Shown here one piece after another: positions 26,131 through 38,366 of a stretch of DNA of 64,000 nucleotides. This stretch comes from an uncultured Methanobrevibacter sp. (lineage in GTDB: Archaea; Methanobacteriota; Methanobacteria; Methanobacteriales; Methanobacteriaceae). A program made the position numbers and the translations under genes. Where the stretch lies: assembly GCF_902770715.1 (NCBI RefSeq), contig NZ_CACXTS010000002.1, positions 1 to 64,000 of the forward strand, in the 5' to 3' direction. The stretch's first letter is position 1, and every line of letters begins with the position of its first letter. Below the pieces are notes generated by a model. That model saw only the letters and a program-made list of their open reading frames with translations. It was not told the DNA's origin and did no database searches.

Positions 26131-26979
26131 CTAATATTTTCCAAAATCAATGAAATCAATTGGATGATTATATCTTTTATCCTCAGGAGGCAACTGCATA
26201 TAATCACCATACAACTCAGTTAAAATCTTATCATAATTTTTAGGAACATTAACATGAATATCCTCAAATTTAACTTGTGTAACCTCTTTAAAATCATTTT
26301 TGTCATATATCAATGGATATTCATGAGCCATAGCTGAAATATCAAATACGTTTTTAGCATTAACATCAGCGTACTTATTTAAAAACTTCAAACATCTTTT
26401 ATTTAATTTGGATGGATTTAAATTTAAAAAATGCAAAATATGATATGCAGAATGTGAAATGACCTTTGAAACAAACGGTAAATCATCTAATCGTATCTTA
26501 GACATTATCAATAAACGATTATATAAGAATGCTTTCTTAAGCTGATAAGAACGCTTATATTTATTGTCTGTTAAATCATCAAGAACAAAAATATCAATAT
26601 TGAATCCTATTGTGAAATCAAGCTGGTCCATCCATTCTTCTTCAAATCGGGTGTTTTTAAGATTTAATTTAGCAAAAAAGTAAGGATAATCACCATGAGA
26701 CTCGGTTGACAACAAATCATATTTTTCATCAGATGAAAATAGCTTCTTGAATCTTTCAAATTCACTTCTTAACATGCAGACATCCAAATCATCGTCCCAT
26801 GGGATGAAACCGCTATGCCTTATTGTTCCCAATAGGGAACCTGCATACATGAAATATGTAACATCGTTCTCATCACAAAAACTGATTAAATCCTTTAAAA
26901 TCATCAATTCAACGTCATGAATATGCTTTAATGTTTCATCATCGTATTCTTTTAGTTTCACTTTATCACTATTTTTCAA
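26131..26979 (-). CDS. LicD-family phosphotransferase (first of three)
   Basis: The product is 282 residues. The family motif GSLLGTIRHSGFIPWDDDLD lies at residues 47-66. LicD proteins move a phospho-group, such as phosphocholine, from a CDP-activated donor to a glycan. It overlaps the phosphonopyruvate decarboxylase gene by 11 nt and is last in the pepM operon, so its donor may be a CDP-linked phosphonate (inference). It closely resembles the LicD at 33253-34086. No membrane segment is seen. Confidence 0.88.
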   Translation of the reverse strand: MKNSDKVKLKEYDDETLKHIHDVELMILKDLISFCDENDVTYFMYAGSLLGTIRHSGFIPWDDDLDVCMLRSEFERFKKLFSSDEKYDLLSTESHGDYPYFFAKLNLKNTRFEEEWMDQLDFTIGFNIDIFVLDDLTDNKYKRSYQLKKAFLYNRLLIMSKIRLDDLPFVSKVISHSAYHILHFLNLNPSKLNKRCLKFLNKYADVNAKNVFDISAMAHEYPLIYDKNDFKEVTQVKFEDIHVNVPKNYDKILTELYGDYMQLPPEDKRYNHPIDFIDFGKY

Positions 26980-28087
26980 GGAATTTCATGAAGTTCTCTT
27001 TATTTTCAATTGCAGTAGTTGTTGGCCTTCCTAAATCTTTTCTGGAGCCTATTGAAGACAATATTTCAATAAATGAAAGTTCATTTCGGGATTTTGCCAA
27101 TGCCAATTCCTTATCCAAATCGTCAAAGTTATCTACTGACACAGCATAGGAATAACCGCATGACTTTGCAACATTAACCAAATCCATTGTTGAAGCTACG
27201 GTAGGCATTCCCCCAACAGTTTCATGAGCACTGTTATTTATAACGATGTGCACAAAATTATCAGGATTTACATTACCTACAAGAGCTAGAGAACCCATAT
27301 GCATTAATGCAGCACCGTCACCGTCTATACACCAAATTTTTTCATCAGGTTTATTGATTGCAACACCTAACGCAATAGATGATGTATGTCCCATTGAACC
27401 AACAGTTAAAAAATCATAATGATGCCCTTGATTATTGGACTCTCTGATTTCAAAAAGCTCACGGCTGGCCTTACCTGTAGTTGAAACGATTGGATCTTCT
27501 CCAGTCACATTAACGATATGTTCAATAATCTCTTCACGAATCATATCATTATCATTTTCATAAACTACCTTTTCATCATAGGTTAAAGCATTTTTGCGAA
27601 CTACAAAAGCAACACACTTGCCTGAATCTAAAATGTTATAATACCCATCCATTGTAGATTTAAGCTCTTCTACAGTCGTATCCTCACTAATTACAAAATT
27701 TTCTATATCCATCAAATCAAGCAAATCGCAAGTGATTTGGCCTTGATAGATATGCTGGGGCTCATCATGAATCCCCGGCTCACCACGCCAACCGATGACA
27801 AAAATGCAGGGAATCGCATAAACCTTATCATTTAAAAGAGAAGCAACAGGATTGATAATATTTCCTTCACCACTATTCTGCATATAGACAACCGGAACCT
27901 TGCCAGTAGCCAAATGATAACCTGCTGCAAGAGCAGTGCAGTTACCTTCATTAGCAGCGATTAAATGATGTTTTTCATCAATACCATAGGTATTCATCAG
28001 ATAATTGCATAATGCCTTCAATTGTGAATCCGGAACACCAGTGTAGAAGTCACAACCCAAAATATCTACAAAATCTTCAACATTCAT
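26969..28087 (-). CDS. Phosphonopyruvate decarboxylase
   Basis: The product is 372 residues, a thiamine-diphosphate enzyme. The N-terminal part has the catalytic-type Glu47 in AANEGNCTALAAG and the signature GWRGEPGIHDEPQHIYQG (about 99-116). The C-terminal TPP site reads CIDGDGAALMHMGSLA. It turns phosphonopyruvate into phosphonoacetaldehyde, pulling the unfavourable PEP mutase step forward. It lies in the same operon as PEP mutase, which makes the assignment firm. Sulfopyruvate decarboxylase is the nearest alternative, but the PEP mutase context argues against it. Confidence 0.93.
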   Translation of the reverse strand: MNVEDFVDILGCDFYTGVPDSQLKALCNYLMNTYGIDEKHHLIAANEGNCTALAAGYHLATGKVPVVYMQNSGEGNIINPVASLLNDKVYAIPCIFVIGWRGEPGIHDEPQHIYQGQITCDLLDLMDIENFVISEDTTVEELKSTMDGYYNILDSGKCVAFVVRKNALTYDEKVVYENDNDMIREEIIEHIVNVTGEDPIVSTTGKASRELFEIRESNNQGHHYDFLTVGSMGHTSSIALGVAINKPDEKIWCIDGDGAALMHMGSLALVGNVNPDNFVHIVINNSAHETVGGMPTVASTMDLVNVAKSCGYSYAVSVDNFDDLDKELALAKSRNELSFIEILSSIGSRKDLGRPTTTAIENKENFMKFLEK

Positions 28088-28096
28088 TGTATTGTC

Positions 28097-29278
28097 CTAC
28101 TTATTCAATTGTGGAGTGATTATTTCATCTATAAGGAACTCTGCAGTTTTTTCTATATCGTCATATTTGACTTCTTTAGGTAAATCAACGCCAAATGCCT
28201 TATCAACTTTACATATTAAATCATCAGTGTAAATCAATGTTGCATCACGGATATCCTCAACACCATCCAATGCTAATGATTCGCGGTTGGCCTTATCCAT
28301 CTCATCAAAAGTGAATACTGACTCATCAATCCAAGCGGATATATTTCCATCCTTATAACCAATGATTACAGGATATCCACCTATATGGCCAAACACTCCC
28401 GGTGCAAATACCTTTTGATTTTCACCAGTGCGGATTGCATCAATGACTGCGCTGATGATGCGATAGTTACTAGAAGCGTTCATCATGTTCCTTTTTTGGT
28501 CAACAGGCATGCTGATGGAACATCTGCTGAATATCTCATCGTGAGGAATGTCTTTTTCTTCTCCTTTGTAGTAGATTTTAAGAGGTAATTCAACACCTTC
28601 AGTTTGACCTTCCTTGCTTATGCAAACGTCATGGAAGTGTGCTGCTGCAAAATTAAAGTCAACATTCCAGAAATCATCAACACCTAAAATATCTGCTACT
28701 GCAAATTTCATTCTTGGAATCAAATGATTTAAATTTCCGCTTCCAAAGTCAGGATATGCTTTTCCTGCACTTCTAAGCCATGGAATAACTGCATCAGAAT
28801 AGGAAGTGTTAATAACGACAGCATCGGTATCGGCATTGTCACATGCTTCCATGATATTTTTTGTAAATCTGATTGACAATGGAGTCCAAATTCCATAAGC
28901 GCGAACATTGCTCCAGGAAATGCTTCCATATTTAAGGCCAGGATATGCCCTGCTTGAGTTAACAATGAAATCAGGACTATATTTGCTTATTGCTTTTTCA
29001 ATTGATGCAATGTCATTTAAATCAACGCCCGCTTCAACAATGATTTGAGATTTATTAACTTCACGAATAAGGCCTGCAACACGGACAATATTTACATCAG
29101 ACTGCATTTTTTCCTGGTTTCTTCCAACAACAACAATTTTTATTGCAGGGTCATTTTTACTTACTAAAAAGTCCAATAAATAGGTTCCAACACTACCTAA
29201 ACCAATAATCATTATAGTTATTTCCTCATCATTTACGTGTTTTTCAACGATTTTCAATCTTTCATCTAAAGTTTTCAT
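28097..29278 (-). CDS. Unrecognised Rossmann-fold enzyme in the phosphonate operon
   Basis: The product is 393 residues. An N-terminal nucleotide-binding motif IIGLGSVGTYLLDFL (about 24-38) is followed by VVVGRN, which suggests NAD(P). The middle has FIVNSSRAYPGLKYG and INTSYSDAVIPWLRSAG; the C-terminal part is not recognised. It begins 1 bp after the nucleotidyltransferase gene and 9 bp before the decarboxylase gene. A reductase or epimerase acting after phosphonoacetaldehyde is plausible because no aminotransferase or iron alcohol dehydrogenase is present, but this is inference only. Confidence 0.7.
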   Translation of the reverse strand: MKTLDERLKIVEKHVNDEEITIMIIGLGSVGTYLLDFLVSKNDPAIKIVVVGRNQEKMQSDVNIVRVAGLIREVNKSQIIVEAGVDLNDIASIEKAISKYSPDFIVNSSRAYPGLKYGSISWSNVRAYGIWTPLSIRFTKNIMEACDNADTDAVVINTSYSDAVIPWLRSAGKAYPDFGSGNLNHLIPRMKFAVADILGVDDFWNVDFNFAAAHFHDVCISKEGQTEGVELPLKIYYKGEEKDIPHDEIFSRCSISMPVDQKRNMMNASSNYRIISAVIDAIRTGENQKVFAPGVFGHIGGYPVIIGYKDGNISAWIDESVFTFDEMDKANRESLALDGVEDIRDATLIYTDDLICKVDKAFGVDLPKEVKYDDIEKTAEFLIDEIITPQLNK

Positions 29279-29279
29279 T

Positions 29280-30053
29280 TTAATTTTCCTCCCAGTAATC
29301 TTTTATAAACTGATAATCATCACGAGTATTGCAATTTACCCAATGTCTTAAGCCGATAATCTCAATATCACCCTTATTTTCCACCAAATCAAAATATTTC
29401 TGGATTATGCCCAGATTGGTGTCTTCAACAATATTCTCATAGAAATTGTCGTTGGCTATTTTTAATAATTCCATATCATTAAATTTCCAGGTTTGGCCTG
29501 AATTGAAAATAGCTTTAAATTGCTCTTCTAATGACAACAATCCATGGTCGCTGTTGAAAAGGTAATGATATTCATCATTTCCATTTTGATATAACACCAC
29601 AGCTTTATTTGAATAAATCGGTTCATAATTAAAGGTTAACACATTTTTATCAGACATGACCACTTCATTAAATGATTCATTATCAATATCCAAATCTCCT
29701 TCAACAAACAATATTTCATCAATATCATTGAAATTATCCAATGCTTCTTTAATTCCAAGATATAAACTATAACCGGAACTTAAATCACTGAAATGGTCGT
29801 TGTAGACTAGAGATATTTTATCCTGCAGCTCACTTGAAATGTTATTTTGAACATATTCCTCCAAATCAGAATATTTATATCCTCCGACAATAATTATTTT
29901 ATCACAATAATCCAGTTTTTTAAGCATTTGATAAATTAAGGTGTTTTGAGGATTTTCTTCATAGTATAGACATTTCAATATCTTGTTTTCCTCAGGAATA
30001 TCTTTATTGAATCTGCTGGAAACACCAGCGACTGTAATAATCGAAATTTTCAA
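29280..30053 (-). CDS. LicC/PntC-like nucleotidyltransferase
   Basis: The product is 257 residues. The N-terminal nucleotide-binding motif is AGVSSRFNKDIPEENKILK (about 9-27), then KIIIVGGYKY and an acidic metal site ILFVEGDLDID. This is the MobA-like fold that includes LicC (CTP:phosphocholine) and PntC (CTP:2-aminoethylphosphonate) cytidylyltransferases. In this operon it probably links a phosphonate to CMP for the LicD transferase. A sugar nucleotidyltransferase is the main alternative. Confidence 0.75.
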   Translation of the reverse strand: MKISIITVAGVSSRFNKDIPEENKILKCLYYEENPQNTLIYQMLKKLDYCDKIIIVGGYKYSDLEEYVQNNISSELQDKISLVYNDHFSDLSSGYSLYLGIKEALDNFNDIDEILFVEGDLDIDNESFNEVVMSDKNVLTFNYEPIYSNKAVVLYQNGNDEYHYLFNSDHGLLSLEEQFKAIFNSGQTWKFNDMELLKIANDNFYENIVEDTNLGIIQKYFDLVENKGDIEIIGLRHWVNCNTRDDYQFIKDYWEEN

Positions 30054-30063
30054 ATTTACTCAC

Positions 30064-31068
30064 CTAATTTTTTGTGTAATTTTGAACACATTCATCCAAT
30101 CCCTTATTTAAATCGACAATAGGTTCCCAATTGGTTCTAGCCCTAATCTTTTCTGTGGAGAGCAATCTTCTTTCAGGATCGGATTCACGGTAGCCTTCAA
30201 ATTTAATTACAGGCTCATCAATACCCATTTTTTCAGCAATGAGCTTAGTTAAATCAATGATTGAAATCTCCTCATCGGTTGCAACATTGTATATTGTACC
30301 GTCAAGTGCAGAATCTGTTTTAGCAAGTTCCAATACGGCACTGCAGCTGTCATAATTATTCAAAAATGTTCTACGATTCTTTTTGGAGTTTTCAAGCAAT
30401 GTAACTTCACCAGTATTTTTGAAACTGTCTATGATATGTGGAATGATATGTTTTGGATATTTTTCATCCCTGCTGTAAACATTAGCGAAACGGATTGAAC
30501 ATCCTTTGATTTTACCGTTGTCAACTGCATCCTTCATGAAAAACTCTGTTAATAGCTTTCCAGTTGCATAGCTGGTTCTTTGACTGTGTTCCGCATCAGC
30601 CATGGTAATGTAATCAGATTCCTTAACACCACCATCTTCATTCCATGAATTCATTGAATAAATCTCGGAAGTGGAGCAGTTAATGTATTTTTCAGCACCC
30701 ACACGAATAGCTTGCTCTAAAAAGTTATTCATACTGATGACATTAGTCTCGTAGGTTTCATAAACATTGTAGAAATGCTCTGTGTGGACAACAGCTGCAC
30801 AATTGATGTAAATGACCTCATCAAAATCATCTTTTAAATCAACAACCATTGCTTCTATTTTATCCATCTCATCTGATTTGTTTAAATCATATTCATAAAA
30901 GTCAAATCTTTCATCATCGATACAATCTGCAACTGTATCAATTGAGGAGGCATAGAAATTGTCAAAACCAATAATTTTAACTTCATTTTCACTCTGATTT
31001 AATAGTTGGCGTACCAATTCGTTACCGGTCATCCCAGTAACACCACTAATAACATATAAGATTTTCAT
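30064..31068 (-). CDS. NAD-dependent epimerase/dehydratase (extended SDR)
   Basis: The product is 334 residues. The N-terminal GVTGMTGNELVRQL is the SDR cofactor loop, with NCSTSEIYS and the catalytic YATGK following, and the extended-SDR end ERRLLSTEKIRARTNWEP. These enzymes change nucleotide-sugar stereochemistry or dehydrate them. The substrate is unknown. It sits between the phosphoesterase and the nucleotidyltransferase in the pepM operon, so it may supply the sugar carrying the phosphonate. Confidence 0.85.
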   Translation of the reverse strand: MKILYVISGVTGMTGNELVRQLLNQSENEVKIIGFDNFYASSIDTVADCIDDERFDFYEYDLNKSDEMDKIEAMVVDLKDDFDEVIYINCAAVVHTEHFYNVYETYETNVISMNNFLEQAIRVGAEKYINCSTSEIYSMNSWNEDGGVKESDYITMADAEHSQRTSYATGKLLTEFFMKDAVDNGKIKGCSIRFANVYSRDEKYPKHIIPHIIDSFKNTGEVTLLENSKKNRRTFLNNYDSCSAVLELAKTDSALDGTIYNVATDEEISIIDLTKLIAEKMGIDEPVIKFEGYRESDPERRLLSTEKIRARTNWEPIVDLNKGLDECVQNYTKN

Positions 31069-31082
31069 AAGTTCTTCTCCCG

Positions 31083-31814
31083 TTAAATTCCATTTTCTAA
31101 TCTTTTTTTATAAAATTCATCGATGCTGCCATCATACAAAGCCATGGCTTTATCTTTTGGATACTCAATGTATCTTAAATCAACACCCATAGAATCTGTG
31201 TCTAGAATTGCATACTGCGCATTTGGATTATGATTTCTAGGTTGACCAACAGATCCCGGATTAATGAATAAAACTGATTTTTTATTTCTGAAATCAGGAT
31301 TTTCAAATTCATAAAATTTTTGAAAAACGTGAGGATAATGGGAATGGCCTGATAAAACGATATCATACTCAATATAATCCCCATTTAAGTTATCTGGAAA
31401 AATTGCTTTCCAATAATAATCATTTAAAGAGCCATGAATAGCTAAAACTTTTTTTCCATCTAAATCTAACTTCAATATTCCTTCATGAGCCAATTCATCA
31501 TTCAAGTAATCCCTGGACTCATCACTTAAAATAGAATCGGTGAATTTAGCTGACTCAACACCTCTTGAGCTTGAAAAATGATTAAAGTCTTTAGTCAAAA
31601 TAGCCCTTTCATGATTGCCCCAGATGTTGCAAATAATATCCAAGGATAAATTTTCTTTAATAAAGTCAATCACTTCATTAGACTGCATACCATAATCTAT
31701 CAAGTCTCCTAAAAGGATTATGGAATCAATTTCCTGATTGACAAGGTCATTGTAAACCTCTTTTAAGGCAAACAAATTCCCATGAATATCGGATAAAATC
31801 GCATATCTTGACAT
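31083..31814 (-). CDS. Calcineurin-like metallophosphoesterase
   Basis: The product is 243 residues. The five metal-binding blocks are all visible: ILSDIHGN, LLGDLIDYG, WGNHERA, IHGSLND and SGHSHYPHVF. This is the YfcE/MJ0936 group of phosphodiesterases. It lies 8 bp after pepM, so it may trim a phosphate ester or phosphodiester in the same pathway, though the link is inferred. Confidence 0.87.
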   Translation of the reverse strand: MSRYAILSDIHGNLFALKEVYNDLVNQEIDSIILLGDLIDYGMQSNEVIDFIKENLSLDIICNIWGNHERAILTKDFNHFSSSRGVESAKFTDSILSDESRDYLNDELAHEGILKLDLDGKKVLAIHGSLNDYYWKAIFPDNLNGDYIEYDIVLSGHSHYPHVFQKFYEFENPDFRNKKSVLFINPGSVGQPRNHNPNAQYAILDTDSMGVDLRYIEYPKDKAMALYDGSIDEFYKKRLENGI

Positions 31815-31822
31815 TTAATCAC

Positions 31823-33130
31823 TTATAATTCATCAATTAGGGTAATAATATCTTTGATAGATAATAATTCTTCATCTATTTCATGTGCTCTGTGATATTT
31901 TAAAATGCTTTTTGCCGCATTTTGCATGGCCGGAAATGCCGCTCTTAATAACTGATTAGCATAAATAACAATATTAACTCCGTGTTCTATGAGCTCATCT
32001 TCAGTGATTGTGTTATATGAAGATGGAACCACAATAATCGGAGTTTCCTTATCTTCCTGTCTGAATTTATCACAGAATTCCAATATTTCATCAGGTTCTT
32101 TCCTTCTGCTGTGTATCATTATTCCATCTGCCCCCGCATCACGGAAAGCAAATGCCCTTTTAAGCGCATCGTCCATGCCCTGTTCAAGAATTAGACTTTC
32201 AATTCTTGCTATAATCATGAAATCATCAGATAATTGTGCATTTTTACCTGCAGCAATCTTTTCACAGAAATGTTCAATTTCATCCTGTGTTTGCTGCACT
32301 TCAGTTCCAAACAGTGAATTTTTCTTCAAACCTATTTTATCTTCAATAATTACCGCAGAAACACCCATCCTTTCAAGTGATCTTACAGTATAGACAAAGT
32401 GTTCAGCTATTCCTCCGGTGTCTCCATCAAAAATGATTGGCTTGGTTGTCACTTCCATTATGTCATTTATTGTTCTGAATCTGGAAGTCATATCAACCAG
32501 TTCAATATCGGGTTTTCCCTTCTCGGTACTGTCACATAAACTGGATATCCACATTGCCTCAAACTGGTCGATGTGCTCATCATCAGCGATTACTGTCTTT
32601 TCAGCTATTAAACCAGTTAATCCACTGTGAACCTCGATTGTCTTTACAATAGGCACCATATCCAATAATTGCCTTAATCTTTTCCTTCTAAGTTCAGGCA
32701 TTGCTAACTGTTCCCTCATTTGCCTGTCAACTTTTTGAATATTTGGGTTATAAGTGTATGGAACCTCTATGAGCTCCCCACCATATTCATCCAAAACTTT
32801 TAAGATATTTCTTCTTATAACCTTCATTGAGTCCTCTGACCAGTTATCCCCATGGATAATGTAATCTGGATGAAGTTCACGAACCACATCATCATACATT
32901 ATTTTGTTTTGAATGATTACCCTTTTTACATCAGGTATTGACTCAACCAAGTCGACACGTTCTTTGGTTGTTTTTAATGGAAACCTATTATATTTAACCA
33001 TTTCAGAATCACAAAGGACACCTACAACAACATCACCATACTTTTTAGCTTCATTAATCAAATTCAAATGTCCTTCATGAATAATATCAGTGCAAAAACA
33101 AGTATATACAATTGGATTATCCTCTTTCAT
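31823..33130 (-). CDS. pepM: PEP mutase fused to an N-terminal cytidylyltransferase-like domain
   Basis: The product is 435 residues. Residues 1-130 form a cytidylyltransferase-like domain with HEGH at 18-21 and a late segment RRNILKVLDEYGG. Residues 160-430 form the isocitrate-lyase-type barrel with FDGDTGG (234-240) and EDKIGLKKNS (263-272), the signature that separates PEP mutase from its lyase relatives. It converts PEP to phosphonopyruvate, the entry step of nearly all phosphonate synthesis. The start is ATG 33130, 7 nt after AAGGT; upstream codons lack that spacing. It heads the seven-gene leftward operon. Confidence 0.95.
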   Translation of the reverse strand: MKEDNPIVYTCFCTDIIHEGHLNLINEAKKYGDVVVGVLCDSEMVKYNRFPLKTTKERVDLVESIPDVKRVIIQNKIMYDDVVRELHPDYIIHGDNWSEDSMKVIRRNILKVLDEYGGELIEVPYTYNPNIQKVDRQMREQLAMPELRRKRLRQLLDMVPIVKTIEVHSGLTGLIAEKTVIADDEHIDQFEAMWISSLCDSTEKGKPDIELVDMTSRFRTINDIMEVTTKPIIFDGDTGGIAEHFVYTVRSLERMGVSAVIIEDKIGLKKNSLFGTEVQQTQDEIEHFCEKIAAGKNAQLSDDFMIIARIESLILEQGMDDALKRAFAFRDAGADGIMIHSRRKEPDEILEFCDKFRQEDKETPIIVVPSSYNTITEDELIEHGVNIVIYANQLLRAAFPAMQNAAKSILKYHRAHEIDEELLSIKDIITLIDEL

Positions 33131-33252
33131 AAACATTACCTTAATTAGCAAAATTTTATTAATTAATTATATTATAAATTTTAAAAAAAGAAATATTTAA
33201 AAATTTCCAAGACATATATAAAATTATTTAAAAAATTAATTAAGGGAAAAAA
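33131..33252. promoter_or_regulatory. Divergent promoter region of the two surface-modification operons
   Basis: The 122 bp between the two divergent starts is almost pure A/T, with TATA-like stretches such as TATATAAA near 33213-33222. GGGAAAAAA just before 33253 provides a weak ribosome-binding site for the plus-strand LicD. Shared control of both operons is possible. Confidence 0.5.
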
Positions 33253-34086
33253 ATGTTTAAATCAAAAAGATATAATGATGAAACTTTAAAACACCTCCAG
33301 CAAGTCCAAATGAAAATTTTAAAATATTTCATTGAAGTTTGTGAAGAGAATAATTTAACATATTTCATATATGGCGGAAGTCTGCTTGGAACTATCAGGC
33401 ATAAAGGATTCATTCCTTGGGATGATGATATTGATGTTATAATGTTTAGAGAAGATTTTGAAAAACTAAATAACATTTTTGAAAAAAGCATTGACAGCAA
33501 ATACTCCTTCATCAATGTCTTAAATGAAGAAACATTCCCTTATACCTTTGGAAGATTATTGTTGAAAAATACTGAATTTAGCGAATGGTGGTATGATCAA
33601 GTAAATTTTAAACAGAATATATTTATGGACGTATTCATTTTAGACAATATCCCAAACAGCAAATTCAAACGATTTATACATAAATGGAAAAGTTTCACAC
33701 TTAATCAGCTCACAATGTATGCATTAATAAAATTTGACAATACATCTAAATTTAAAAAAATAATTCAGAACATAGTTTATTATTTAATAAAAATACTTCA
33801 TATTTCTCCATACTCAATTAAAAAGAAATGCGTGGAATCCTTTTCAAAATATGAACATGAAAACTGTGATGAAGTTTGTGACTTTCCAGCAGTATGTCAA
33901 ATGCCAGTTTATTATAAAACTGACTGGCTACCGCCAAAAAGAGCGCAATTCGAAGATATTGAAGTGAACATTCCTAAGGATTATGACAAAATATTAAAAA
34001 GAACATACGGAGATTATATGGCATTGCCTCCAGAAGAATCTAGATGGCGTCCCGCTCCCGAAAAAATTGATTTTGGAGAATATTAA
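33253..34086 (+). CDS. LicD-family phosphotransferase (second)
   Basis: The product is 277 residues. The motif GSLLGTIRHKGFIPWDDDID lies at residues 42-61. It is clearly a paralogue of the LicD at 26131-26979: both begin with DETLKH and end with LPPE(E/D)xR and IDFG(E/K)Y. It heads the rightward operon with the GpsA-like and IspD-like genes, so its donor may be a CDP-polyol rather than a CDP-phosphonate (inference). Confidence 0.88.
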   Translation: MFKSKRYNDETLKHLQQVQMKILKYFIEVCEENNLTYFIYGGSLLGTIRHKGFIPWDDDIDVIMFREDFEKLNNIFEKSIDSKYSFINVLNEETFPYTFGRLLLKNTEFSEWWYDQVNFKQNIFMDVFILDNIPNSKFKRFIHKWKSFTLNQLTMYALIKFDNTSKFKKIIQNIVYYLIKILHISPYSIKKKCVESFSKYEHENCDEVCDFPAVCQMPVYYKTDWLPPKRAQFEDIEVNIPKDYDKILKRTYGDYMALPPEESRWRPAPEKIDFGEY

Positions 34087-34104: not shown

Positions 34105-35073
34105 ATGACATTAAACATTGGAGTTATTGGTGCCGGTGCAATGGGAACTGCCATTTCACAGTCAATAGCTGAAAATGCTAATAAATTATTTTTATATGCA
34201 AGAAAAAAAGAAATTTGTGATGAAATTAACTCAACACATTATAATTCACAATATTATCCCAACTTAAAATTAAAAGAAAATATTATCGGAATTAATGAAT
34301 TTGACAAATTAAATGAAGTAGATATCATATTTTTATGTATTCCTTCATCAACTGTTCGTGAAGTAACTGCTGAATTAAATAAGATCATTTCAAAAGATTG
34401 CATTCTAGTTACAACCGCAAAAGGGATTGAATCCAACACAAACAAACGTATGACCGAAGTTATTGGGGAAATAATTAAAAGACCAGCAGTTGCATTATCC
34501 GGACCGAATATTGCTTCAGAAATGGCAAAGAATCTTTCCACTGCAACAACAATTGCTTGTGAAGATGAAAATTCTCTAATGAAAGTAAAAACCGCATTAG
34601 AAACAAAAAAATTCAAGGTTAATGCCAATACTGATGTTATAGGTACTGAATTTTGCGGAATTATTAAAAATGTTTTAGCAATAAGCCAGGGAATCTGTGA
34701 AGGATTAGACATTAATGACAATGCAAGATTTGCATTATTCACAAAAAGTTATGCTGAAACAAAAGACATCATTGAAAAATTAGGTGGAAGCCGAGATACA
34801 GTAGATGATTATTGCGGATTTGGAGACATAATTACTGCTTCAACATTATCAGTCAGCAGGAACCATACATTAGGAGTGTTATACGGTCAAGGAATTGTAG
34901 TTGACGAGAAATCATCTGGAATTTTATTTGAAGGAAGAAATACAACAGTTATTCTAAAAGATATTTGCGATAAATATAACCTTCAAAGTTTGACTGTTAA
35001 TTTTGTTTATGATGTTATTGTTGATAAAAACAATCCTAGACTAGCTTTTAATAAATTTTGGGATGGTTTATAA
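34105..35073 (+). CDS. GpsA-like glycerol-3-phosphate dehydrogenase
   Basis: The product is 322 residues. The NAD(P) loop is GAGAMG (9-14), the catalytic-type Lys188 lies in CGIIKNVLAISQGICEGL, and the end domain has GFGDIITASTLSVSRN, all as in bacterial GpsA. GpsA reduces dihydroxyacetone phosphate to sn-glycerol-3-phosphate. Archaeal membrane lipids use the opposite isomer made by an unrelated enzyme, so this gene is more likely to serve a surface polymer or decoration. It lies between LicD and the IspD-like gene, and its stop abuts the next start. Confidence 0.85.
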   Translation: MTLNIGVIGAGAMGTAISQSIAENANKLFLYARKKEICDEINSTHYNSQYYPNLKLKENIIGINEFDKLNEVDIIFLCIPSSTVREVTAELNKIISKDCILVTTAKGIESNTNKRMTEVIGEIIKRPAVALSGPNIASEMAKNLSTATTIACEDENSLMKVKTALETKKFKVNANTDVIGTEFCGIIKNVLAISQGICEGLDINDNARFALFTKSYAETKDIIEKLGGSRDTVDDYCGFGDIITASTLSVSRNHTLGVLYGQGIVVDEKSSGILFEGRNTTVILKDICDKYNLQSLTVNFVYDVIVDKNNPRLAFNKFWDGL

Positions 35074-35769
35074 ATGATTTTTGTAGCAATGCTTGCAGGT
35101 GGAATTGGAACTAGAATGAAATTGGACAAACCAAAACAATTTGAAATTGTTGGAGACAAACCAATTCTTGCCCATTCAATTGAAAAATTTTTAGAAGTTG
35201 ATGAAATTGATAAAATTATAGTTTCTTCACCTGAAAGCCATATTACAACAACAAAAGACTTAATTAAAAACTATTTTAACGATGATTCAAGAATTGTTGT
35301 CATACTTGGCGGTGAAACAAGAAACGGCACTATCTTAAATTCAATAGATTATGTTAAATCAAATTATAATGATGGAGACCATATTCTAATAACACATGAT
35401 GCGCCAAGAATATTTGTAAGTCCAGAATTAATTAGAAAAAGCATAGAAGAACTTGAAGACCATGATGCTGCAAGTCCGGTCATTCCTGCAGTTGATGTTA
35501 TTTTTGAAAGCAAAGAAAAAGGAAAATTAACTGATATTCCACTTCGTAAAAATTTAGTTCACTCACAAACCCCACAAAGCTTTAAGATTAATAAATTTTT
35601 AGAAATTTACCAAGATTTGAGTGAAGATGAAATATCTAAATTAGATGAAGCCATGATGCTATTCTTCTTAAGAGATGGAAATATTTCCCTATTTGAAGGA
35701 GACCCAAGCAATTTTAAAATCACAAGAAAGATTGATTTGAAGATTGCAGAAGCATATTTGAATGAATGA
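35074..35769 (+). CDS. IspD/TarI-like cytidylyltransferase
   Basis: The product is 231 residues. It carries AGGIGTRMKLDKPKQF (8-23), ILITHDAPRIFVSPELI and LVHSQTPQSFK, the CTP- and substrate-binding blocks of the IspD family. Archaea use the mevalonate route and the window has its first two enzymes, so an isoprenoid role is unlikely. The same fold in TarI/Bcs1 activates ribitol phosphate. Next to a GpsA-like enzyme and two LicD genes, it probably makes a CDP-polyol such as CDP-glycerol (inference). Confidence 0.87.
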   Translation: MIFVAMLAGGIGTRMKLDKPKQFEIVGDKPILAHSIEKFLEVDEIDKIIVSSPESHITTTKDLIKNYFNDDSRIVVILGGETRNGTILNSIDYVKSNYNDGDHILITHDAPRIFVSPELIRKSIEELEDHDAASPVIPAVDVIFESKEKGKLTDIPLRKNLVHSQTPQSFKINKFLEIYQDLSEDEISKLDEAMMLFFLRDGNISLFEGDPSNFKITRKIDLKIAEAYLNE

Positions 35770-35777
35770 GGTAAACC

Positions 35778-36821
35778 ATGAATTTTAGTAAACTTTATAG
35801 AAAATTACCTAAAAAAATACAGGACTCTGAAAAACTAATGATATATTGCATTAGGTTTGTAAAATTTATTCGCAGCAAGAAATTGAGAAAAAATGAACCT
35901 GCTAAAAACAATCTCCTGAATTTTATATTCAAATCAAGTACAATAAAACCAACTGGAACAATAAGAGATATTCAATTATTATATCTTGAATTGCTAAAAT
36001 TCATCGATAACGTCTGTGAAAAGCATGATCTTGACTATTGTCTTACATACGGCACATTACTTGGAGCAATACGCCATGAGGGATTCATACCTTGGGATGA
36101 CGATTGCGATATTTTAATGATGAGAAAAGATTATGATAAATTTATCGAAGTGTTACCTGAAGAAATAAATAAATATGAATTTTTTAAAGAGAATTGTGCT
36201 TTAACACGCCTGATTAATTCAACTGACAACTATTTTACAGATTTCAATAATATATACCACAAAGAGCTAGGTCATGATGATTTCTTCAATTTACCGGGTT
36301 TGGGAAAATCACTATTTTTACAGTTAGGCTGGTTGAAACCAATGGTGAAATTAGATATTTTTCCTTATGACTATGTAAAAGAAGAATTTGTTAACTATTA
36401 CACCAAAAATTACCTCGGCCATAAATTCTATTTCAGGGGATTGTATTCCCAAGAGAATTTTTCATTTGAAAAGGAATTTACTAAAAGATTTGAGGAATTA
36501 GGTTTGAGCTATGAACCAACTAATTTTATTGCTGAAGGGATTGATGCTTCATTTATAGAAGATTTTCCTCCTTTTAAAAAAGAATTAATATTTCCTACAA
36601 AAAGATTGAAATTTGATGAATATGAATTGAAATGTCCAAATAAATCACATGAATTACTTAAATTATGGTACGGAGACAATTATACGGACATTCCACAAAA
36701 TGTTGTTGTTCATGGATATGCTGATTATAATTTAACATTATTTGAATCAAAATCAGAAATGGATAATGCATTTAAGGACACTATTGAGAAGTTAAAAGAA
36801 ATTAATCACAACTTTGAATAA
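35778..36821 (+). CDS. LicD-family phosphotransferase (third, longer form)
   Basis: The product is 347 residues. The motif GTLLGAIRHEGFIPWDDDCD lies at residues 92-111, after a basic N-terminal extension of about 60 residues. It is more distant from the other two LicD proteins. It lies 8 bp after the IspD-like gene and ends the rightward operon. It presumably attaches a CDP-activated phospho-group to a glycan. Confidence 0.87.
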   Translation: MNFSKLYRKLPKKIQDSEKLMIYCIRFVKFIRSKKLRKNEPAKNNLLNFIFKSSTIKPTGTIRDIQLLYLELLKFIDNVCEKHDLDYCLTYGTLLGAIRHEGFIPWDDDCDILMMRKDYDKFIEVLPEEINKYEFFKENCALTRLINSTDNYFTDFNNIYHKELGHDDFFNLPGLGKSLFLQLGWLKPMVKLDIFPYDYVKEEFVNYYTKNYLGHKFYFRGLYSQENFSFEKEFTKRFEELGLSYEPTNFIAEGIDASFIEDFPPFKKELIFPTKRLKFDEYELKCPNKSHELLKLWYGDNYTDIPQNVVVHGYADYNLTLFESKSEMDNAFKDTIEKLKEINHNFE

Positions 36822-36893: not shown

Positions 36894-38366
36894 ATGAACA
36901 AAAAATACATTATTGCAGCTATTGCAATCCTAATAATAATTTGTGCATGCGCTTTCGCTCTCACAAATTCATCCAGCAATGCCTCAACAAGCATTGATGC
37001 AAATGCACTGGAGGACAGAGGAAACCTCATTGTTGACTCTTAAAGCTTAGACGAAAGTAAGGGACTATACCACACTGATAGTGCAGATGTAAATACAATT
37101 CTTGTCAAAAATGGAGGAGCATTAAAGCTCATCGACTCCATCATCAACAAGACAGGAGACACCGCATCTACCGGTGACGACGCTGATTTTTATGGAATCA
37201 ATTCTGCCGTTTTAGCCAATACAAATGGCACCATAGACATTTCCAACGTTGAAATCAACACGGACTCCAAAGGATCCAACGGTATTTTTGTAACCAACGC
37301 TGAAGCATCTGGAGAAGATTCTTCAGCGCAAGGTGGAAATGCTGGCAGCGGAGGACAACCTCCTGAAATGCCTGACGGAGGCCAGCCTCCTGAAACAATT
37401 GACGGACAGGGTCCGGGAGGTAGCGAAGAACCTGGCCAGACCACAGTTTCCGGAACAACTGAAGCAAACATCAAAAACGTTAAAATCACAACACACTCAG
37501 ACAAATCCAGAGGACTGGACGCAACATACAACGGAATCATCAATGCCGAAAATGTTGTCATCAACACCGACGGCCAAAGCTGTGCGGCACTTGCAACAGA
37601 CCGTGGAGAGGGCCAGGTACATGTCAAGAACTCAGATATCAACACCGGCGTAAGCAAAGCCAGCGGCAGGGGATCACCTTTAATCTACTCAACAGGAAAC
37701 ATCACCTTGGAAAATACCAAAGGTACTTCCTATGTTTCTCAAATAGCATGCATCGAAGGCAAAAACTCAATTGAACTTACAGACTGTGATCTGACTGGAT
37801 ACGGCGAAGGAAACAGGCAGGATGGTGATGCATACGTCGATTTAGGAGGAGTGTTCATCTACCAGTCCATGAGCGGAGACGCTGATGTCGGAACAAGCCA
37901 GTTCACCGCCAAAAACTCCAAATTGACAATACCTCAGGAATCATCCGTTTACGGTGAGGCCCCAATGTTTCATGTAACCAACACCGCCTGTGTTATTAAT
38001 TTAGACAATACAGAGTTAAGCTTCGGCAGCGGAACATTCCTCGAAGTTTCAAGCCAAAACCAATGGGGAAACACTGGTTCAAATGGAGGAACAGCCGAAC
38101 TAAACACAGATAATGAAAAGATAGAAGGCAACGTCATTGTCGATTCAATCAGTTCCTTAAACTGGACCATGAAAAATACCGAGTTTAAAGGAGTAATCAA
38201 TTCAACAGGCAACACTACAGTAAATGTTGCTGAAGGTTCAACATGGACATTGACCGGGGACTCCACAGTCTCTTCATTGGCTGTTTCAGGAAACATCGAT
38301 TATGGTGACTATTCAATAACGGTTAATGGTCAAAACTACGATAGTTCAAATCCTTTTAACGGATAG
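36894..38366 (+). pseudogene. Secreted repeat-rich surface protein interrupted by an in-frame TAA
   Basis: ATG 36894 opens MNKKYIIAAIAILIIICACA, a signal peptide, and the frame meets TAA at 37041-37043 (codon 50). It then stays open without another stop for 440 codons to TAG 38364. The body is rich in Asn, Thr, Gly and Ser, with recurring VxI(N/T)TDG and LxxTxGNITLENT turns, resembling right-handed beta-helix surface proteins. It includes a Gly/Pro linker (GGQPPEMPDGG) common in gut Firmicutes surface proteins. The base composition is more GC-rich than around it, hinting at transfer. A TATA-like ATACTTAAATA lies about 25 bp before the ATG, so a leaderless message is likely. Confidence 0.75.

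Follow-up and report, generated by a model that had tools for sequence, protein, structure and literature searches.

The window analyzed here is a 64,000-nucleotide stretch from an uncultured Methanobrevibacter sp., a methanogen of gut/rumen type (contig NZ_CACXTS010000002.1, positions 1 to 64,000), in which a gene for a GpsA-like dehydrogenase abuts one for an IspD-fold cytidylyltransferase, with LicD-family genes on both sides and a phosphonate operon on the opposite strand. The features that bear on its interpretation are:

26131–26979, minus strand: LicD-family phosphotransferase closing the divergent phosphonate operon (PF04991, 142.9 bits)
26969–28087, minus strand: phosphonopyruvate decarboxylase of the divergent operon (TIGR03297, 463.5 bits; cut-off 312.5)
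31823–33151, minus strand: PEP mutase with an N-terminal cytidylyltransferase domain (Fom1-like), gene 1 of the phosphonate operon (TIGR02320, 414 bits)
33152–33252, no strand: A+T-rich divergent intergenic region, read directly from the sequence; probably the promoter region for both the polyol operon (plus strand) and the phosphonate operon (minus strand)
33253–34086, plus strand: LicD-family phosphotransferase, 277 aa, gene 1 of the polyol operon (PF04991, 142.2 bits); candidate user of the CDP-polyol
34105–35073, plus strand: GpsA-family NAD(P)H dehydrogenase, 322 aa (PF01210/PF07479, NF000942, residues and tree)
35074–35769, plus strand: TarI-family (IspD-fold) cytidylyltransferase, 231 aa (NF001183, PDB matches, AlphaFold/Foldseek, tree and alignment columns)
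35778–36821, plus strand: LicD-family phosphotransferase, 347 aa, final gene of the polyol operon (PF04991, 116.3 bits)

Both genes of the central pair are preceded by ribosome-binding-like sequences, and the ATG of the second comes immediately after the stop codon of the first. The LicD genes on either side run in the same direction, with gaps of 18 bases upstream and 8 bases downstream, and the three LicD products listed above exceed the PF04991 cut-off of 22.6 bits. These abutting genes and their LicD flanks had been noted in a preliminary description of the DNA, the coordinates of which are exact. The archaeal host and the mevalonate-route enzymes that it named are equally well grounded: the window encodes equivalog-level matches to TgtA, archaeal HMG-CoA synthase and acetyl-CoA acetyltransferase, and its closest relatives among named records are Methanobrevibacter. 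The genome to which it belongs is 93% complete.

Full family motifs, as had been ascribed to both proteins, are indeed present. The GpsA-like protein matches PF01210 (141.8 bits) and PF07479 (106.0 bits) over their full length, passes the GpsA subfamily models NF000942 (267.8 against a cut-off of 257) and NF000940, and passes none of the GpsA equivalog cut-offs. It is the sole GpsA found in its 93% complete genome, and it retains the catalytic residues Lys106, Lys188, Asn189, Asp241, Arg252 and Asn253; its AlphaFold model, built from 7 sequences, is too poor to use (pLDDT 67). Phylogenetically, the GpsAs of the Methanobacteriaceae form one clade (100/100), separate from 34 bacterial GpsAs, and within this clade the proteins paired with TarI split from the others (x_L070 in this tree is the truncated GpsA of G064, in the TarI-paired group, and x_L072 that of the basal pair of G030).

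The cytidylyltransferase (CYTIDYLYLTRANSFERASE, 35074–35769) matches PF01128 over its full length with 137.8 bits. It had been described as IspD/TarI-like, and it is the TarI half of that name that stands: it passes NF001183, the model for D-ribitol-5-phosphate cytidylyltransferase, with 268.2 bits against a cut-off of 166, and falls under the IspD equivalog cut-off (TIGR00453, 152.8 against 181.3). Its top PDB matches are TarI (E values of 4e-50 to 3e-45; best IspD 2e-20), and an AlphaFold model with a pLDDT of 91.9 retrieves TarI structures as its best Foldseek matches, with that of Staphylococcus aureus at rank 1. A tree of 19 GpsA-paired enzymes, 15 IspDs and 28 other TarI-type sequences, corresponding to a phylogenetic check that the preliminary description had proposed, gathers the 19 into a single clade (100/100) that sits within archaeal and clostridial TarIs, with the 15 genuine IspDs lying across a branch of 87/98 support. 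As the subfamily models, the PDB search, the modeled fold and the phylogeny agree, the protein is assigned on sequence and model to TarI and not to IspD.

Archaeal lipids use the glycerol-phosphate isomer opposite to the product of GpsA, and archaeal GpsA has been discussed as a puzzle in the literature on the lipid divide. Automatic family annotation alone might name the pair as ordinary genes of lipid and isoprenoid synthesis, with GpsA supplying G3P lipids and IspD the MEP route, but this is scarcely credible here. IspF, through which the MEP route was probed, is absent from the 93% complete genome, the control search being positive in 9/14 named genomes, and enzymes of the mevalonate route are encoded in the window itself; on this evidence, together with the TIGR00453 score, the PDB matches and the tree, a genuine IspD in an MEP pathway was rejected as far as sequence permits. 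PlsY (PF02660), the acyltransferase through which the bacterial phospholipid G3P route was probed, is likewise absent, with a control positive in 8/14 genomes. A G1P dehydrogenase is present, and so, with PlsY absent, a GpsA serving phospholipid synthesis is unlikely and was rejected as far as sequence from a genome of this completeness allows. Thus, neither gene of the pair appears to serve lipid or isoprenoid synthesis.

Across 139 Methanobacteriaceae genomes, surveyed with a threshold of at least 57% identity for the cytidylyltransferase, both proteins occur in 18, and one further genome (G030), the 19th, has a more divergent version of the pair; the genomes are drafts, in many cases metagenome bins, and the counts are not those of independent events. 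In all 18 other loci that were read the two genes are co-directional, and in 17 of them scored as adjacent, the one near-adjacent locus having a small opposite-strand ORF between GpsA and TarI. In G037 and G042 about 1.3–1.5 kb separates them. A LicD gene lies at most three genes from the pair in 17/18, the exception being the short contig of G030. With the same pair in 19 genomes of the family, its recurrence is not due to chance. GpsA-paired loci of Methanobrevibacter account for the eight closest of 80 loci from named genomes, and almost all the remaining TarI-type relatives have a TarJ-like partner where the contig reaches; the exceptions are contigs that are cut short and some remote loci of bacteria, such as L142, L196, L199 and L200.

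As for the provenance of the pair, no close GpsA was found in 391 genomes of the class Clostridia (best 257 bits with the archaeal profile) or in 22 genomes of TarI-bearing bacteria (26–34% identity). For these sampled genomes, gut Clostridia are rejected as the source of a recent transfer, though a donor may lie in an unsampled lineage. Phage records yielded distant matches only, all below 60% identity and the best about 33%, in unannotated fragments, and plasmid records TarI-like matches of at most 42% identity. The two trees cannot place the origin of the ancestral TarI or GpsA.

The partnership is accompanied by changes in both active sites. In the cytidylyltransferase, the core residues R20, K27, D106, R109, R157, T165 and K213 (E. 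coli IspD numbering, as below) are invariant. In its acceptor pocket, the window enzyme has T140 changed to V, P110 to I, T189 to D and D190 to E. Position 140 (residue 142 of the window enzyme) is Val in 19/19 GpsA-paired enzymes, whereas Thr is retained by each of the 15 IspDs and of the 71 other TarI-type relatives; position 110 is Ile in 19/19, where Pro is conserved in IspD and TarI; and position 189 is D, N or H in 19/19 and T or S in the 71/71 others. In E. coli IspD, the side chain of Thr140 bonds the C3 hydroxyl of methylerythritol, beside the phosphate-bearing carbon (PMC3111433). Because of this contact, the loss of Thr140 is what would be expected, though it is no proof, of an acceptor changed to sn-glycerol-3-phosphate. 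On the GpsA side, Ala245 is found in 18/18 TarI-paired proteins (17/17 and the basal pair), in a position occupied by Thr in each of the 34 bacterial GpsAs compared and of the 12 other archaeal ones; Thr244, Leu248 and Val250 are likewise peculiar to the TarI-paired clade. By our mapping, made in part from aligned PDB relatives, position 245 is that of human GPD1 Thr264, a conserved active-site Thr. The substitutions in both enzymes are already in the most divergent pair and, thus, probably date to the start of the GpsA–TarI partnership.

These changes bear on whether the enzyme could still make CDP-ribitol with GpsA as an unrelated neighbor, which would accord with its exceeding the NF001183 TarI subfamily model. 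This is very unlikely, given that all members of the clade have a GpsA-type reductase in place of the TarJ-type one and that Thr140, Thr189 and Pro110, conserved in IspD and TarI alike, are all changed. Furthermore, the same genome has a separate canonical TarI–TarJ pair (L001 1489–3214, C17), a locus common across Methanobrevibacter. It also has 6 glycerophosphotransferase-family (PF04464) genes, 9 LicD genes and a gene, with LicD genes nearby, in which a Gfo/Idh oxidoreductase domain is joined to a TarD-like cytidylyltransferase (L253 7878–9203, C3). A teichoic-acid-like gene set, namely CDP-polyol synthesis plus PF04464 or LicD transferases, is accordingly found in this genome, and the window pair is, judged by gene content, one of its several predicted CDP-polyol modules.

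The pair very probably forms a module making a CDP-activated polyol donor for the LicD transferases. The preliminary description had suggested CDP-glycerol or a similar donor in a teichoic-acid-like chemistry; the module feeding LicD holds up well, whereas CDP-glycerol as its product is plausible only. We infer the pathway as follows, in its substrate, order of steps, acceptor and surface location alike. The GpsA-like enzyme would reduce dihydroxyacetone phosphate (DHAP) to sn-glycerol-3-phosphate, the TarI-like enzyme would transfer CMP from CTP to the latter to give CDP-(3-)glycerol, and the flanking LicD proteins would move glycerol phosphate from CDP-glycerol onto a surface glycan, as fukutin and FKRP do with CDP-polyols. 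These two LicD-domain proteins can use CDP-glycerol (PMC8587909). Human ISPD was considered as a precedent for its synthesis and dropped, since CRPPA is reported to be without CDP-glycerol-forming activity (PMC8587909). CDP-3-glycerol formed in this order is the most likely product and is favored with moderate confidence, in view of the TarI placement, the absence of IspF and PlsY alongside a G1P dehydrogenase, the stable pairing, the occurrence of GpsA with three partner types (see below) and the stereochemistry suggested by T140V. Several points count against it: Ala245 in place of Thr may indicate that the GpsA-like enzyme has a substrate other than plain DHAP; 12/19 genomes with the pair have another GpsA, which would be redundant if both yielded CDP-glycerol; and we know of no IspD-fold enzyme that makes CDP-3-glycerol.

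The first two of these points lend some weight to a different CDP-polyol, such as CDP-2-glycerol, CDP-1-glycerol or a tetritol derivative, for which both active sites would have been reshaped once the two enzymes had diverged from their other archaeal GpsA and TarI relatives. The substitutions in the two enzymes are co-ordinated and clade-wide, down to the most divergent pair; the second GpsA is of the kind found near LicC/TarD-type cytidylyltransferases; and the diversity of polyols seems real, in that relatives have IspD-fold cassettes with epimerase or aldolase-like genes. Still, all the catalytic residues of GpsA are retained, the operon is without a gene to supply an unusual ketose phosphate, and sn-glycerol-3-phosphate stereochemistry already accounts for T140V, such that this reading is a clearly weaker possibility. 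In a bolder and equally tentative form, the two enzymes might have co-evolved in the Methanobacteriaceae for an undescribed CDP-polyol, neither CDP-3-glycerol nor CDP-ribitol, as one interchangeable cassette of several that vary the surface glycan in the manner of bacterial capsule loci.

The diversity in question is visible in the LicD/phosphonate islands of relatives, where an IspD-fold cassette may be accompanied by an SDR epimerase (L236, L237), by a gene of the ribulose-phosphate-3-epimerase family together with a zinc alcohol dehydrogenase (L241, L244) or by a GatZ-like protein (L239, L242); the window pair is probably one of several such exchangeable CDP-polyol cassettes. At two loci (L238 4866–5579, L240 4843–5556), Tyr and Ser take the places of Asp106 and Arg109 in an IspD-fold protein encoded directly after a gene whose product starts with a LicC-like nucleotidyltransferase domain; the chemistry of this IspD-fold protein is perhaps altered.

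The order of the two steps could also be reversed, with the TarI-like enzyme converting DHAP and CTP to CDP-dihydroxyacetone and the GpsA-like enzyme reducing this CDP-ketose to CDP-glycerol. Such a bulkier substrate might be accommodated by the GpsA changes at 244, 245, 248 and 250, which lie next to the conserved SRN motif, but Arg252 and Asn253, which we take to bind the free phosphate, are invariant, and the TarI–TarJ system is established to reduce before activation, all of which makes this order improbable. It has a precedent in Campylobacter jejuni HS:5, where, as predicted for the window, a PF01128 cytidylyltransferase works with a reductase toward a CDP-alditol (HS5.18/HS5.17): the first enzyme makes CDP-6-fructose, which is then reduced to CDP-6-glucitol; unlike the window reductase, however, that of Campylobacter is an SDR and not a GpsA, acts after cytidylylation and leads to a hexitol product (PMC10918830).

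Parallels might also be struck between reduction before activation toward CDP-glycerol, the preferred reading, and other known systems. Like TarI–TarJ, which makes CDP-ribitol for wall teichoic acid, the window has neighboring genes for a reductase and an IspD-fold cytidylyltransferase in a surface-glycan locus, and its cytidylyltransferase nests within TarI-type sequences; unlike it, the reductase is GpsA-type rather than a TarJ-type alcohol dehydrogenase, and the acceptor contacts at T140, T189 and P110 are replaced. CDP-glycerol synthesis by GpsA and TarD/TagD offers the same GpsA-type enzyme with a cytidylyltransferase and the same predicted product, but that cytidylyltransferase belongs to the TarD nucleotidyltransferase family and not to the IspD/TarI fold. 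In the human ISPD (CRPPA)–FKTN/FKRP system, an IspD-fold CDP-polyol synthase feeds LicD-domain phosphotransferases (PMC4873967), whereas it makes CDP-ribitol and has no GpsA partner.

A further comparison lies within the family, in the GpsAs that occur away from TarI (22 loci, L099–L120). They belong to the same archaeal GpsA clade and keep the conserved Thr at 245, unlike the window protein, and their partner cytidylyltransferases are unrelated to TarI. A LicC-like nucleotidyltransferase (PF00483), with LicC and inositol-1-phosphate cytidylyltransferase among its nearest solved relatives, lies at most three genes away in 17/22, and a fusion of TarD-like and Gfo/Idh domains in 4/22, giving a cytidylyltransferase of one or the other type nearby in 21/22; a PF04464 gene lies within the same distance in 13/22. 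Members of PF04464 also transfer other polyol phosphates. Thus, the GpsA of the Methanobacteriaceae partners three unrelated types of cytidylyltransferase, and, GpsA being common to all three, the simplest reading is that they probably share a glycerol-phosphate substrate, which suggests that the role of GpsA across this family is generally of the CDP-glycerol type.

With nearly every Methanobacteriaceae GpsA examined lying near a cytidylyltransferase-type gene, often along with PF04464-family or LicD genes, a testable answer can be offered to the puzzle of archaeal GpsA: it may make building blocks of glycans, not of lipids. If CDP-glycerol is the product, the window enzyme would, as far as we know, be the first with the IspD/TarI fold to synthesize CDP-3-glycerol, and the clade-wide change of Thr140 to Val would fit the flipped stereocenter. 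The presence of GpsA in Methanobacteria has already been published, with horizontal transfer proposed (PMC5059525; PMC6431249), and the portions of those two papers that were consulted mention no glycopolymer role for it. Teichoic-acid homologues and phosphate-rich walls have been reported for Methanobrevibacter ruminantium (PMC2812497). A literature search, with most subscription journals outside its coverage, found no account of the GpsA–TarI pair or its pocket changes, and the clade, the paired changes and the glycopolymer role of archaeal GpsA appear to be new. The pair further suggests that host-associated methanogens have a surface chemistry that is variable and teichoic-acid-like, with possible relevance to virus receptors, host immunity and vaccine targets in the rumen.

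The surroundings of the polyol operon merit brief mention. The first LicD gene of the polyol operon has the start of the phosphonate operon (26131–33151, minus strand) some 100 bases upstream. The N-terminal domain of the PEP mutase fusion matches 5x3d (E 1.5e-28), and the phosphonate operon further encodes a DUF6564 protein, an epimerase, a Sacchrp-like dehydrogenase, a phosphodiesterase-like protein and LicD; its content suggests that a CMP-activated phosphonate, perhaps hydroxyethylphosphonate, is put on a glycan. On the other side, at 37190–38366, long ORFs overlap in several frames, among them one for a 332-aa protein (37368–38366) that is rich in Gly, Asp, Thr and Asn, has no NCBIfam matches and might be a fragment or part of a secreted adhesin-like protein.
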